Below are positions 6,827 to 28,779 of a DNA stretch of 64,000 nucleotides, piece by piece (position 1 is the stretch's first letter; every line of letters starts with the position of its first letter). The notes under the pieces are model-generated. The model had not been told where the DNA came from, searched no databases, and saw nothing but the letters and a program-made list of their open reading frames with translations. The position numbers and the translations under genes were made by a program. The stretch comes from Sulfurimonas sp. HSL-1656 (GTDB lineage Bacteria; Campylobacterota; Campylobacteria; Campylobacterales; Sulfurimonadaceae): the NCBI RefSeq assembly GCF_039645585.1, contig NZ_CP147915.1, forward strand, positions 1,612,001-1,676,000, read 5' to 3'.

Positions 6827-7111
6827 ATGAACAAAGCACAGTTTGTCGAACTGGTTCAGAAGCACGGTGACTACAAAACAAAAGCAGAAGCAGAAGCTGC
6901 AATCAAAGCCTTTACTGATGCGGTAACAGATGCACTCGTAGCGAAAGAAGATGTCACACTTGTTGGCTTCGGTAGCTTTACATCTGCCCTGCAAAAAGGC
7001 AAAAGCGGTACAGTACCGGGTACGGACAAGAGCTATACTACAGCGGACAAAATGGTTCCGAAGTTCAAAGCAGGAAAAGGTCTCAAAGACCGCGTTGCCG
7101 AAGGCAAGTAA
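6827..7111 (+). CDS. HU-family DNA-binding protein
   Basis: A 94-residue HU/IHF-type nucleoid protein: MNKAQFVELV at the start, the dimer-core GFGSFTSALQ (residues about 46-55), the DNA-binding arm with its conserved proline region (TVPGTDKSYTT), and the KFKAGKGLKDRV end. HU homodimers bend and compact DNA. The start is set by TTGGAGCG before ATG at 6827. The gene is visibly poorer in GC-rich third positions than its neighbours, with GAA/AAA/GCA/GTA favoured, as is common for very highly expressed or differently selected genes. A strong hairpin terminator follows. Confidence 0.95.
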   Translation: MNKAQFVELVQKHGDYKTKAEAEAAIKAFTDAVTDALVAKEDVTLVGFGSFTSALQKGKSGTVPGTDKSYTTADKMVPKFKAGKGLKDRVAEGK

Positions 7112-7123
7112 CTCCTCACCCCT

Positions 7124-7146
7124 GGCCGCCGTCCGCGGCCGCTTTT
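7124..7146 (+). terminator. Intrinsic terminator after the HU gene
   Basis: GGCCGC (7124-7129), a five-base loop, then GCGGCC (7135-7140) followed by GCTTTT. A six-bp all-GC stem with a short T-run 12 bases after the HU stop codon is a convincing rho-independent terminator. Confidence 0.8.
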
Positions 7147-7250
7147 CCCCACACCACCATTAACTTCTACGTCTAATCCTCCCATGCCTGATTTCAGACA
7201 GGATTGTTCTGGCACACTCATGCCTGTAATCATTTATGCAAAGGCATCAT

Positions 7251-7649
7251 ATGGAAAAAGTAACCAAAACCGAACAGGAGTGGCGTGCGCAGCTCTCGCC
7301 CGAAGCCTACCACGTCTGCCGCGAACACGGTACGGAAGCCCCCTTCAGCGGGAAATTTTACCAGCATAAAGGCGACGGGGTCTACCGCTGCGTCTGCTGT
7401 GATGCACCGCTGTTTACATCGGATACGAAGTTCGATTCGGGGACGGGATGGCCGAGCTATTTCGAACCCTACAGTGATGATGCGCTGGTGGAGATCAAAG
7501 ATACGAGTTTCGGGATGGTTAGAATAGAAGTGCGGTGTGCGCTCTGCGACGCCCACCTGGGGCATGTCTTTCCCGACGGTCCGGAACCGACGGGGCTGCG
7601 CTACTGCATCAACTCCGTCTGCCTGACCTTCGATGAGGCGGATAGTTAG
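7251..7649 (+). CDS. msrB: Peptide-methionine (R)-S-oxide reductase
   Basis: A 132-residue MsrB that reduces methionine-R-sulfoxide in proteins. It has the family block DSGTGWPSY (62-70), catalytic Cys119 in RYCINS, and two zinc-binding CxxC pairs (Cys47/50 and Cys96/99). No signal peptide, so cytoplasmic. ATG at 7251 is preferred over 7236 because AAAGG lies six bases before it. Its last four bases overlap the convergent outer-membrane protein gene. Confidence 0.96.
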
Positions 7650-8155
7650 AAGTTGACGGCCAGACCGATCATGTAGTTGTTCATAGCTTCGGACGTGTTG
7701 ACATACTCGACGTAGAGGTCCAGCTGGTTGTTCAGCTCGTACATCCCGGCAATACCACCGGAAATCGTGATATCGCCGCGAGTATGGATCTCATCTGCGA
7801 GGTTCGGGAAGATCACGCCGAATTTCGGGCGGACTTTGAATGCGGAACCCGGGATATCGATCGTGTAGGTCGCGTAAAAACCGAGGGTCGTGATGTCAAT
7901 CTTGTTGTTAGTGTTGCTGTATTCCGGTGAGATCAGTGACGTACTCAGTTCCGCTTCAACGCCGAGGTTGTTCAGGACGTTGTCAAGCTCCAGCCCGCCT
8001 TTGATCGCCAGGCCGACGCCGTCATCAACATGTTTCGGCATCGCTTCGAGACCGATACCCGCGCCTACATAAAAGCCGTTGCTTGCCTGCTGCTGGGCAT
8101 ATGCCGAAGATGTGAGCAGCACTGCCGCCGCAATCGATACAATTTTTTTCATCAT
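7646..8155 (-). CDS. Small outer-membrane beta-barrel protein
   Basis: A 169-residue protein with a signal peptide ([20 protein letters not shown], cleavage before QQQ). Alternating-hydrophobicity strands follow ([36 protein letters not shown]), ending in a terminal Phe, the classic BamA recognition residue. Size suggests an eight-stranded OmpA/OmpW-like barrel. Function unknown. Two adjacent ATGs (8155, 8152) follow AAAGGA. Divergent promoter with the cyclophilin gene. Confidence 0.82.
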
Positions 8156-24448: not shown

Positions 24449-25228
24449 GTGACCATCCCCCTGTACCAGATCGATGCTTTTTCCGCCCATATCTTTGCGG
24501 GCAACCCCGCCGCCGTCTGCCCCCTTGAAACATGGCTCGACGATGCGACGATGCAGCAGATCGCAGCCGAGAACAACCTTGCTGAAACGGCTTTTTTCGT
24601 CCGGGAACCTGGGGGATACCGTATCCGATGGTTTACGCCGACGACGGAAGTGGATCTTTGCGGACACGCGACGCTCGCCAGCGCTCACGTGCTTTTTGAA
24701 CACCTCGGATACAAAGGGGGGAAGCTTACTTTCGATTCGCGCAGCGGTCCGCTGCATGTCACACGGACCGATTCGATGCTCTCCCTGGATTTCCCTTCCG
24801 AACCACCCCTCGCCGTTCCCGTACCGCCTGAGATCGTCAAGGCGTTCGGCAAGCCGCCGGTCGAAGTCCTCAAAGCCAGCGACTATATCGTCGTCTTTCC
24901 CGACGGGGAGGATCTAAGCGCACTCTCCCCCGACCTTGATGCGCTCCGCGCCCTGGACCTGCGCGGGGTCTGCATTACGGCGCGCCATGACCGCTATGAC
25001 TTCGTCAGCCGCTTCTTTGCGCCAAACTTCGGCATCGACGAAGATCCCGTCACGGGTTCCGTCCATACCCAACTGACCCCCTATTGGGCCAAACGGCTTG
25101 GCAAAAAAAGACTCTTCGCCAAGCAGGTCTCGCCCCGAGGCGGAGAACTGCGATGCGAGCTGGCCGGTACGAGGGTGATCATTTCCGGGAATGCAACAAC
25201 CTTCCTCGTGGGCAAGATTCATCTCTGA
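24449..25228 (+). CDS. PhzF-family isomerase/epimerase-like protein
   Basis: A 259-residue protein with the duplicated PhzF fold: YQIDAFSAHIFAGNPAAVCPL, NNLAETAFFV with the conserved catalytic Glu, RWFTPTTEVDLCGHATLASAHVLFE and RFFAPNFGIDEDPVTGSVH. No other phenazine genes are near, so the name should not be read as phenazine synthesis; most PhzF homologues (like YddE) have unknown substrates. GTG is the start: the only nearby ATG (24441) hits a stop after three codons. AAAAGGA precedes it. Confidence 0.88.
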   Translation: MTIPLYQIDAFSAHIFAGNPAAVCPLETWLDDATMQQIAAENNLAETAFFVREPGGYRIRWFTPTTEVDLCGHATLASAHVLFEHLGYKGGKLTFDSRSGPLHVTRTDSMLSLDFPSEPPLAVPVPPEIVKAFGKPPVEVLKASDYIVVFPDGEDLSALSPDLDALRALDLRGVCITARHDRYDFVSRFFAPNFGIDEDPVTGSVHTQLTPYWAKRLGKKRLFAKQVSPRGGELRCELAGTRVIISGNATTFLVGKIHL

Positions 25229-25301
25229 CGGGCATGTTGCCATTTTGCCCTGGAAACGCAGCTGACAGCCCTTATGCTACACAGCACTCGCAGATTTCAT
25301 G

Positions 25302-25307
25302 TATAAT
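25302..25307 (+). promoter_or_regulatory. -10 element of the leucine-attenuated leuA operon
   Basis: TATAAT within ATGTATAATGGC, 30 bases before the leader-peptide ATG. No convincing -35 hexamer is visible at 16-18 bases upstream, so an activator or a weak -35 is likely. Confidence 0.6.
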
Positions 25308-25336: not shown

Positions 25337-25429
25337 ATGAACTGTAGTTTCGGCCGCTATCGGCACGCATCACCATCCCACACAGCGATGAACCGCACCC
25401 TTCTCCTACGCCTACTTCTTTCTCTATAA
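25337..25429 (+). CDS. Leucine attenuator leader peptide (LeuL-like)
   Basis: A 30-codon open frame with a strong Shine-Dalgarno (AAAGGAG, six bases before ATG). The last ten codons encode TLLLRLLLSL: seven leucines, all CTT, CTC or CTA, and none the CTG that dominates surrounding genes. Ribosomes short of charged leucyl-tRNA would stall here. It ends 29 bases before the terminator hairpin and about 100 bases before a 2-isopropylmalate synthase gene, exactly the arrangement of a leucine leader. An internal ATG (25388) would give a 13-residue version. The first half (MNCSFGRYRHASPSHTA) carries no leucine. Confidence 0.85.
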   Translation: MNCSFGRYRHASPSHTAMNRTLLLRLLLSL

Positions 25430-25525: not shown

Positions 25526-27574
25526 ATGTATACCAAATACCGGCCCTACCCGGCCGTGGCCATGGAGAAAAGAGCCTGGGCGGACAAAACCGCCGACGTT
25601 GCCCCCGTGTGGGCCAGTACCGATCTGCGCGACGGCAACCAGGCACTCAAAAACCCGATGGACATCCCCCAAAAAGTTGCCTATTTCCAGGCCCTGGTCG
25701 ATTTCGGCTTCAAAGAGATCGAAATCGCCTACCCCAGCGCGTCGCAGACCGAATTCGATTTCTGCCGGACGCTGATCGAGGGAGAGATGATCCCGAAAGA
25801 CGTCACCGTCGGCGTTCTCGTGCCCGCCATCGAACGCCACATCGTGCGCAGTTTCGAAGCACTCCGCGGCGCGAAGCGGATCATCTTTCACCTGTACAAC
25901 CCGACCGCTGCGAACCAGCGTGAAGTCGTCTTCCGACGCACGGAAGAGGCGATCATCGGTCTGGCGGTACAGGGCGTAGCGTGGGTCAGTCGCGAAGCGG
26001 AGCGCTTTGGGGGCGAGGTCGTGTTCGAGTACTCGCCGGAGAGCTTTTCGCAGACCGAACTCCCCTTCGCGCTGGCGGTCTCCAACGCCGTCATCGACGC
26101 CTGGGGGCCGACGCCGCAAAGCCCGATGATTTTGAACCTGCCCAATACGCTGGAAGCCGGTTCGCCCAATATCTACGCCGACCGGATCGAGTGGATGGGG
26201 GAGCGTATCGCGCAGCGCGAGAGCGTCATTATCAGCGTCCACCCGCACAATGACCGCGGCTGCGCCGTCGCCAGCGCCGAACTGGCCGTTTTGGCGGGCG
26301 CACAGCGCGTCGAGGGTACGATGCTGGGCAACGGCGAGCGCGCCGGAAACGTTGACCTCGTTACGATGGCCTTCAACTACTACGCGCAAGGTATCGACCC
26401 GCGGTTGAACGTCGGGAAGATCGACGAAGTCCTCTCGCGGATCACGGCGATCACGGGCACCGAGGTGGCTGAGCGCCATCCCTATGTGGGCTCCATGATC
26501 TACAGCGCCTTTTCGGGCACCCACCAGGATGCGATCAAGAAAGGGATGGAACACCGCCGCGCCAGCAACACGCATGCATGGGAGGTCCCCTACCTCGCCA
26601 TCGACCCGGCCGATATCGGACGCGCCTATAAAGACGCCGTCCGCATCAACTCCCAGTCGGGCAAGGGGGGCGTCGCCTACGTCCTCAAAGAGTGCTACGG
26701 CATCGAGGTCCCCGCCTCAGAGCAGACGGCACTCGCGGATGCCGTGAAAAAGTGCTCCGAGGCGCGCGGCGGCGAGATCGGCGCCGACGAAGTGCGCGAG
26801 CTCTACGAGCAGATGGCGCAGCACGCGGAGAGCAACAGCTGGAATGCGGCGCATTATGCCCCCCATGCCGGTTTCGTCTCGGCGCTGGCGCTCCCCGTCG
26901 TGGAGCTGCTCTCGCCGAAAGCGGGCGAAACAATCCTCGACCTGGGCTGCGGCGAAGGGAGCCTCGCCGTGGAGATCCAAAAGCGCGGCGCCGACGTCGT
27001 GGCGGTCGACCTGAATGCCGACATGGTCGAATGTGCCAGGGCCAAGGGGATCGACGCCTATGTGATGAGCGCGACACTGCTCCCTTTTGAGCGGCGTTTC
27101 GACGCGGTCTTTTCCAATGCCGTACTGCACTGGGTCACGGAAGCCCGTACGGCCGTGCGGCAGGTCCACCGGGCCCTGAAACCCGGCGGCAGGTTTGTCG
27201 CCGAGTTCGGAGGGTACGGCAATGCGGCGCAGGTCGTCGAAGCGATGCGGATGGTCTTTGAACGGCACCCTGAATTCGGCCCCTTTGAAAACCCCTGGTA
27301 CTTCCCGACCGATGCCGAGTACAAGGCGCTGTTGGAATCGGAAGGGTTCAGTGTCGCCTCCGCCGAACTGATCGTGCGGCCGACACCCGTCGACGACATC
27401 GCCCACTGGCTCGACCTCTTTGCCAACGGCATCGTCGCGCACCTGGAGAGTGCACAGCTCTCCCGCTTCAAACAGGAGGTGCGGACGCTGTTGGAACCGA
27501 CACTGTACAATGCTTCGGAAGGGTGGCATGTCGATTACGTTCGGCTGAGGGTCAAGGCGCGCAGGGGAGGCTGA
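25526..27574 (+). CDS. 2-isopropylmalate synthase (type 2) fused to a SAM-dependent methyltransferase
   Basis: A 682-residue two-domain protein. Residues 1 to about 425 are the catalytic TIM barrel and linker of type-2 LeuA, which condenses acetyl-CoA with 2-ketoisovalerate: STDLRDGNQAL (30-40), EIAYPSASQTEFDF, the metal-site HPHNDRG (239-245), GTMLGNGERAGNVDL and SGKGGVAYVL. In place of the usual C-terminal leucine-binding domain, residues about 440-680 form a complete class I methyltransferase: HAGFVSAL, the SAM motif ILDLGCGEGSL (about 470), VVAVDLNADMV, FDAVFSNAVLHWV and ALKPGGRFVAEFGG, most like trans-aconitate-methyltransferase-type enzymes. The frame is continuous with even codon use. 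Feedback inhibition by leucine is probably lost; control would be by the attenuator upstream. What the methyltransferase acts on is unknown. Confidence 0.88.
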   Translation: MYTKYRPYPAVAMEKRAWADKTADVAPVWASTDLRDGNQALKNPMDIPQKVAYFQALVDFGFKEIEIAYPSASQTEFDFCRTLIEGEMIPKDVTVGVLVPAIERHIVRSFEALRGAKRIIFHLYNPTAANQREVVFRRTEEAIIGLAVQGVAWVSREAERFGGEVVFEYSPESFSQTELPFALAVSNAVIDAWGPTPQSPMILNLPNTLEAGSPNIYADRIEWMGERIAQRESVIISVHPHNDRGCAVASAELAVLAGAQRVEGTMLGNGERAGNVDLVTMAFNYYAQGIDPRLNVGKIDEVLSRITAITGTEVAERHPYVGSMIYSAFSGTHQDAIKKGMEHRRASNTHAWEVPYLAIDPADIGRAYKDAVRINSQSGKGGVAYVLKECYGIEVPASEQTALADAVKKCSEARGGEIGADEVRELYEQMAQHAESNSWNAAHYAPHAGFVSALALPVVELLSPKAGETILDLGCGEGSLAVEIQKRGADVVAVDLNADMVECARAKGIDAYVMSATLLPFERRFDAVFSNAVLHWVTEARTAVRQVHRALKPGGRFVAEFGGYGNAAQVVEAMRMVFERHPEFGPFENPWYFPTDAEYKALLESEGFSVASAELIVRPTPVDDIAHWLDLFANGIVAHLESAQLSRFKQEVRTLLEPTLYNASEGWHVDYVRLRVKARRGG

Positions 27575-28206: not shown

Positions 28207-28779
28207 ATGGAGCAGTTTCTGGCATCGTCGACCTATATCGACTATCACCATCCCGCCGTCATGGCAAAAGCCGAAGCACTTGCAGAGGGGCTAAGCACTA
28301 AAGAAGCCGTCGCACGAAGCTGTTTCGTATATGTCCGCGACGCAATCGCCCATACCGGTGACGCGGGCCGCGGGGTCTCGACGATCAAAGCCAGCGAGGT
28401 CCTGGAGCAGAAAACCGGCTGGTGCTACGCCAAGAGCCACCTCCTGGCCGCCCTGCTTCGTGCCAACGGCATCCCGGCGGCACTCTGTTACCAGCGGCTC
28501 AGCTGCTCGGAGTACACGCCGGACCTCTACTGCCTCCACGGCCTCAACGCCGTCTGGCTGGAGGCGTACGGCTGGTACCGCTGCGATCCCCGCGGCAACA
28601 AAAAGGGGGTCGATGCCCAGTTCACCCCGCCTGTCGAACGGCTGGCCTTTGCGCTCGGTGAAAACGAGTATGACATCGAGGGGCGTTTCGCAGCGCCCCT
28701 GCCCGAAGTTATCGACGCCCTGCGGACCTACACGCGTTACGAAGAGATGGTAGGGCACTTTCCCGATCGCTCTGCCTGA
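28207..28779 (+). CDS. Transglutaminase-like (papain-fold) protein
   Basis: A 190-residue cytoplasmic protein with the transglutaminase-core triad: Cys73 in TGWCYAKSHLLAALLRANGIPA, His111 in LHGLNAVWLE, and Asp127 in YRCDPRGNKKG. In bacteria this fold usually acts as a cysteine protease, peptidase or amidase rather than as a cross-linking enzyme. No signal peptide. Function and substrate unknown. Downstream of ybaK and convergent with sodB. Confidence 0.85.
   Translation: MEQFLASSTYIDYHHPAVMAKAEALAEGLSTKEAVARSCFVYVRDAIAHTGDAGRGVSTIKASEVLEQKTGWCYAKSHLLAALLRANGIPAALCYQRLSCSEYTPDLYCLHGLNAVWLEAYGWYRCDPRGNKKGVDAQFTPPVERLAFALGENEYDIEGRFAAPLPEVIDALRTYTRYEEMVGHFPDRSA

Follow-up and report, generated by a model that had tools for sequence, protein, structure and literature searches.

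A short 2-isopropylmalate synthase fused to a TAM-like methyltransferase behind a leucine-rich leader in Sulfurimonas

The genome of Sulfurimonas sp. HSL-1656 (one 2.56 Mb contig) carries an open frame that appears to join a 2-isopropylmalate synthase (LeuA) to a SAM-dependent methyltransferase (MT). We analyzed this gene within a stretch of 64 kb (the window) and asked whether the fusion is genuine, what has become of its leucine control and what the second half might methylate. The answer that we favor, and hold to be somewhat probable, is a bifunctional enzyme induced by leucine starvation, which would make 2-isopropylmalate and methyl-esterify it or a nearby acid of the leucine pathway. 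The features on which the argument draws are the following:

25278-25307, + strand: sigma-70-like promoter (TACACA-18-TATAAT), 10/12 matches in a consensus scan that gave two sites in 2.6 kb with 0.8 expected
25337-25429, + strand: leader peptide ORF of 30 codons, MNCSFGRYRHASPSHTAMNRTLLLRLLLSL and stop, with AAAGGAG ahead
25400-25426, + strand: leucine codons of the leader (CTT CTC CTA. CTA CTT CTT. CTA), 7 Leu among the last 9 codons
25459-25500, + strand: intrinsic-terminator-like hairpin and T run, ~30 nt before the fusion start, -17.6 kcal/mol, z -2.8
25526-27574, + strand: fusion gene, short 2-isopropylmalate synthase plus TAM-like MT, 682 aa, single open frame
25607-26434, + strand: HMGL-like (DRE-TIM) catalytic domain, residues 28-303 (Pfam PF00682, E 2.4e-65), with IPMS pocket and metal residues conserved
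26495-26689, + strand: IPMS_D2 post-catalytic subdomain, residues 324-388 (Pfam PF22615, E 3.9e-32)
26828-27571, + strand: complete class I SAM methyltransferase, residues 435-682 (Pfam Methyltransf_11/25, AF2, Foldseek; its N-terminus coincides with the starts of standalone MTs)

The first-pass annotation had described a single uninterrupted LeuA-MT frame of 682 codons that lacks the leucine-binding domain, and both points were confirmed. The synthase half scored 636.7 bits against the NCBIfam model PRK03739 ('2-isopropylmalate synthase'; cut-off 455) over residues 2-441, and missed the cut-off of TIGR00970 (548 vs 697 bits). Pfam Methyltransf_11/25 matched residues ~470-558, a Pfam search gave no match to LeuA_dimer (PF08502), and the junction between the halves lies at residue ~431-437. 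Among solved structures, the closest to residues 4-433 is M. tuberculosis LeuA 1sr9, and the closest to residues 435-677 is the putative MT 3ccf. A full-length AF2 model (mean pLDDT 74, pTM 0.52; weak at residues 317-377 and in the linker 433-448) was too uncertain for domain packing or channeling to be judged from it.

A search for the same fusion in related genomes recovered an intact frame of 682-683 aa in two more complete Sulfurimonas genomes (94% and 92% identity) and in further genera at 70-73% identity. Because the intact frame recurs in sister species and other genera, the fusion is no artefact, and a frameshift or misassembly was ruled out. The methionine at residue 430 (26813) could serve as an internal MT start. 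We found no clear ribosome-binding site ahead of it and, by consensus scan, no promoter-like sites inside the gene; on these grounds a separate MT product appears disfavored.

Its HMGL-like and IPMS_D2 domains and its PRK03739 match class the N-terminal half as a type-2 2-isopropylmalate synthase, predicted to act on 2-ketoisovalerate and acetyl-CoA to give 2-isopropylmalate. In an alignment to 1sr9, a type-2 enzyme with which it shares the catalytic barrel, IPMS_D2 and active-site residues, the IPMS-type pocket, metal and catalytic residues are conserved (M. tuberculosis numbering R80, D81, L143, H167, E214, S216, E218, N250, P252, T254, H285, H287, N321, and H379). We took the signature residues from PMC12961565. 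The fusion differs from type-2 LeuA in its missing LeuA_dimer domain, its appended MT, its status as an extra paralogue and the attenuator-like sequence upstream. Because the leucine-binding domain is absent, the N-terminal half would be free of leucine feedback.

Eight positions are fixed differently in short and fused LeuAs compared with canonical LeuAs, and several of them adjoin active-site residues in sequence. The oxo-acid substrate could therefore have shifted, which counts against the reading that we favor. In that case the short LeuA subfamily would make another 2-alkylmalate, the MT would esterify it, and both would belong to a small specialized pathway with an exporter. Plant methylthioalkylmalate synthases are IPMS relatives that have lost the same leucine domain (PMC6603273), and transporters of the LysE, TauE or EamA type lie beside short leuA genes. 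The plant enzymes, however, have an altered side-chain pocket and no MT fusion (PMC6603273), whereas all proposed side-chain-reading residues of the fusion are IPMS-type, and the leucine-rich leader ties the gene to leucine. We regard such a shift as decidedly unlikely.

The MT half was modeled well on its own (AF2 mean pLDDT 90). By Foldseek its nearest solved structure is 3ccf, an uncharacterized cyanobacterial MT (40% identity, TM 0.83-0.86); BioC, juvenile-hormone-acid MT (JHAMT) and others come next and are less similar. It has a class I SAM-MT fold with a conserved SAM motif, matches TAM models over its full length and resembles carboxyl-O-MTs (JHAMT, 2p35). Membership in the trans-aconitate type, which acts on small carboxylates, had been proposed at first pass; profiles and fold bear this out as TAM-like, at scores below the family cut-offs. 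The half reached 63 of 320 bits against the trans-aconitate 2-methyltransferase equivalog PRK14103, which is why we call it TAM-like and not TAM, and 65.8 of 184.95 bits against TIGR02072 (BioC malonyl-ACP O-methyltransferase). Assignment to TAM or BioC was rejected on these scores. The likeness to E. coli Tam, yeast Tmt1, JHAMT and BioC thus consists in the class I fold and the full-length profile match; the half differs from Tam, Tmt1 and BioC in falling below the family cut-offs and in being fused to a synthase, Tmt1 being a separate yeast protein that acts on 3-isopropylmalate. Because of the low scores the family does not supply the methyl acceptor, a further point against the favored reading.

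Two precedents bear on the acceptor. Yeast Tmt1 methylates 3-isopropylmalate, isopropylmaleate and trans-aconitate (PMC3197675), and the pantaphos hvr cluster, in the excerpts of PMC7858074 drawn on here, places the IPMS-like HvrC and the TAM-like MT HvrF in one operon. The same excerpts describe separate proteins and a phosphonate substrate and mention no leucine leader; the pairing of synthase and MT that they report would also suit a LeuA of shifted substrate. Because of the IPMS-type residues, the carboxyl-O-MT likeness and these precedents, we favor a synthase joined to a carboxyl MT. The C-terminal half would form a methyl ester by transferring the methyl group of SAM to a carboxylate of 2-isopropylmalate or of a neighboring acid (3-isopropylmalate, isopropylmaleate or its trans isomer).

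A TAM-like enzyme could also serve repair. The LeuA half would then be an inducible, feedback-free leucine booster and the MT half would deal with damage in the way that TAM assists aconitase, by methylating trans-aconitate or a wrong isomer (e.g. trans-isopropylmaleate from LeuCD turnover); the purpose of the fusion would be co-expression, not channeling. In keeping with this, off-pathway trans-aconitate is a substrate of both TAM and Tmt1, isopropylmaleate one of Tmt1 (PMC3197675; PMC7858074), and elsewhere synthase and MT are separate adjacent genes. Against it, the recurrent physical fusion involves the synthase and not the dehydratase, and we found no direct evidence of a trans isomer. 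We consider repair rather unlikely.

The first-pass annotation held that leucine feedback inhibition is simply lost, which the upstream sequence does not support. The leader peptide there ends in RTLLLRLLLSL and a stop codon. Seven leucines in ten codons occurred in 0 of 2000 dinucleotide shuffles, the leader is the only one of its kind in the 64 kb window, and CTA, which it uses repeatedly, makes up 0.9% of the leucine codons of window genes. Upstream of 1172 other genes we found five cases with at least six leucines in ten codons, of which two precede pseudogene members of the fusion/short-LeuA family and one an MT gene of the same clade. The hairpin that follows could be aligned in 13 leaders, with double compensatory changes at 3/10 pairs, a modest signal of covariation. 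A leucine leader precedes all 13 fused genes examined and most short leuA genes, including 13/13 in Sulfurospirillum, where it holds Leu and Val (LVVVLLLKLR and stop). None was found before the Aliarcobacter-type short leuA genes L123, L125, and L138, nor within 450 nt upstream of each of seven canonical Campylobacterota leuA genes; the host's canonical leuA likewise has none.

A leader of this type, LeuL, has been described for the C. jejuni leuABCD genes, and most Epsilonproteobacteria that have leucine genes are predicted to possess one (PMC3847290); its features are 20-35 aa, C-terminal leucines, rare Leu codons and early termination. The fusion gene has the corresponding elements, a short SD-preceded ORF ending in rare Leu codons and then a terminator-like hairpin. 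Unlike C. jejuni LeuL, the leader here is found ahead of the paralogue, whether short or fused, and ahead of some genes of the same MT clade, not ahead of the host's canonical leuA. Sequence and conservation suggest that ribosome-mediated attenuation sets transcription: with ample charged tRNA-Leu the leader would be translated and the terminator would halt transcription; under leucine shortage, stalling of the ribosome on the Leu codons would allow the fusion gene to be read. Leucine control has thus probably moved from protein allostery to RNA attenuation. Against this part of the favored reading, folds of the region gave no consistent antiterminator pairing, and the interval between leader and hairpin is pyrimidine-rich. 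A search of Rfam gave no match at gathering level.

How did synthase and MT come together? Sulfurimonadaceae, Sulfurospirillum and Arcobacteraceae all have short LeuAs of 432-457 aa that lack the leucine domain, and in three families there are short LeuAs without any MT. Related Lachnospiraceae type-2 LeuAs retain the domain, apart from those truncated at a contig end and those in which it went undetected. LeuA and MT meet cleanly: the short LeuAs end in '...GIYEGMxRR', standalone MTs start with 'M-KESNSWNA...', and the fusions read straight through. Given the domain-free short LeuAs and the clean joint, loss of the leucine domain most likely preceded the addition of the MT. Replacement of the leucine domain by the MT, as the gene had originally been interpreted, was rejected; the MT was appended to an already complete short LeuA.

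The Arcobacteraceae genome SMBSF37 has a LeuA-MT fusion of its own. Its halves resemble local proteins, with 77% identity to a standalone MT for the MT half and 86% to short LeuAs for the LeuA half. The trees of both halves rejected a single clade of fusions (p-AU 0.0014 and 6.6e-8; a poorly aligned alignment with mixed MT-only and full rows was left out), and with it a single origin. The trees indicate at least two independent LeuA-MT fusions. In 7/13 Sulfurospirillum genomes the gene immediately after short leuA encodes an MT of a different clade, more like E. coli Tam, and in one Sulfuricurvum short leuA, a separate MT gene and a TauE-type gene follow one another. Among 81 Arcobacteraceae, short LeuA is present in 8/11 MT genomes (Fisher p 0.007, or 0.026 without the fusion, with ancestry ignored), which points weakly to a shared function. 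Our main argument for a shared function is that one synthase lineage has been coupled repeatedly to TAM-like MTs. Many short leuA genes have no nearby MT even in fusion-bearing genera, which counts against the favored reading.

The fusions are patchy, and the same MT clade is also fused to a different O-methyltransferase (L201:493-1809, 438 aa). Both facts would fit a fortuitous read-through, in which the halves catalyze unrelated reactions and nothing depends on their being joined. This is highly improbable in our estimate: fusion occurred at least twice, both halves stayed intact at 70% identity across genera, and the separate-gene neighbors in other families and the modest Arcobacteraceae co-occurrence, which ignores ancestry, also speak against it.

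MT genes of the same clade outside the short-LeuA context offer another view of the second half. In one family (f6) the clade occurs without short LeuA, and only a LeuA of ~520 aa was found. Among six MT genes outside the LeuA-MT fusion, two have leaders. One is a standalone MT of the fused clade (L202, ~6870-7845) with a Leu-rich leader (MRTVNYRHQDTKKYTALLLLPLHCVS and stop) and a terminator-like hairpin and T run; the other is the L201 gene, preceded by a Leu/Phe-rich leader peptide and then a hairpin and T run. The standalone MTs L199, L200, L203, and L063 have none, and the Arcobacteraceae standalone MTs without a leader count against the bifunctional reading. These leaders suggest, though not conclusively, a role in leucine metabolism for the MT itself; their occurrence where short LeuA is missing would also fit a repair enzyme. 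Together with the recurrent independent coupling, they make isopropylmalate or a related acid a more plausible MT substrate.

Downstream of short leuA there is often a membrane transporter gene whose family varies (TauE, EamA, LysE; L045, L046, L085-L096), with a LysE-type exporter in 11/13 Sulfurospirillum genomes. Such neighbors suggest the export of a product. In yeast, secreted 3-isopropylmalate methyl ester is reported to be an amino-acid-starvation signal, in work cited in PMC3197675. By analogy, a leucine-starved cell might make and export isopropylmalate methyl ester as a signaling or protective compound, in a bacterial counterpart of the yeast system that would have evolved by repeated coupling of a feedback-free synthase to TAM-like MTs behind a leucine attenuator. 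We give this more specific proposal a low probability.

Within the family, 19/228 genomes have the short LeuA subfamily, 12 as fusions (including Sulfuricurvum; one is cut by a contig end) and 7 with the LeuA part alone, of which one or two have in-frame stops. Our contig scan used LeuA peptides as queries, so fusions outside Campylobacterota may have escaped it if their LeuA is diverged. Decaying copies are a short LeuA with in-frame stops in Sulfurimonas BM502 (L048) and one with an internal deletion of ~45 residues in Sulfuricurvum (L062:9170-10351). A contig labeled as a Helicobacter pylori PMSS1 MAG (L126) has an Arcobacteraceae-type short LeuA and is probably mislabeled or a mixed assembly.

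In a congener without the fusion gene (G005) the alignment to the window breaks off at 25188 and resumes at 28317; leader, fusion and the downstream YbaK-like gene are therefore missing there together. A PhzF gene precedes the fusion in the window (24449-25228), and in another congener without the fusion (L099:694-1464) an E. coli-Tam-like methyltransferase gene also adjoins a PhzF gene. Copies of the fusion lie on the S. kujiense DSM 16994 plasmid NC_014755.1 and on a Sulfuricurvum contig with a ParA-like gene (L053 and L058). On account of the plasmid location and the ParA-like gene, the fusion gene is probably mobile.

A second leuA, a possibility raised at first pass, is present elsewhere in the host genome: its canonical LeuA (561 aa, C1:427165-428445) shares 52% identity with the fusion. 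All 32 genomes tested (20 + 12), which were picked for fused or short LeuA plus two congeners lacking them, have a LeuA that retains the leucine domain, so the fusion as the only LeuA was rejected. On this sequence evidence the fusion is an extra LeuA paralogue, probably mobile, beside the canonical enzyme.

The architecture had been taken as undescribed, and our literature search found no paper on it, an absence that is no proof. The separate ingredients are all known; their combination, the fact that it arose more than once and the leucine attenuator appear to be new. One polypeptide here joins the committed step of leucine synthesis to a carboxylate methyltransferase, which bears on why cells methyl-esterify leucine intermediates, a reaction known to date from yeast, where a starvation signal has been proposed. 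The fusion further provides a predicted substrate class for an uncharacterized MT clade (PDB 3ccf and relatives). A plain '2-isopropylmalate synthase' annotation, the only one that the S. kujiense plasmid copy carries, can hide a second enzyme. Our analysis suggests that these sulfur-oxidizing bacteria may make a methylated leucine precursor.
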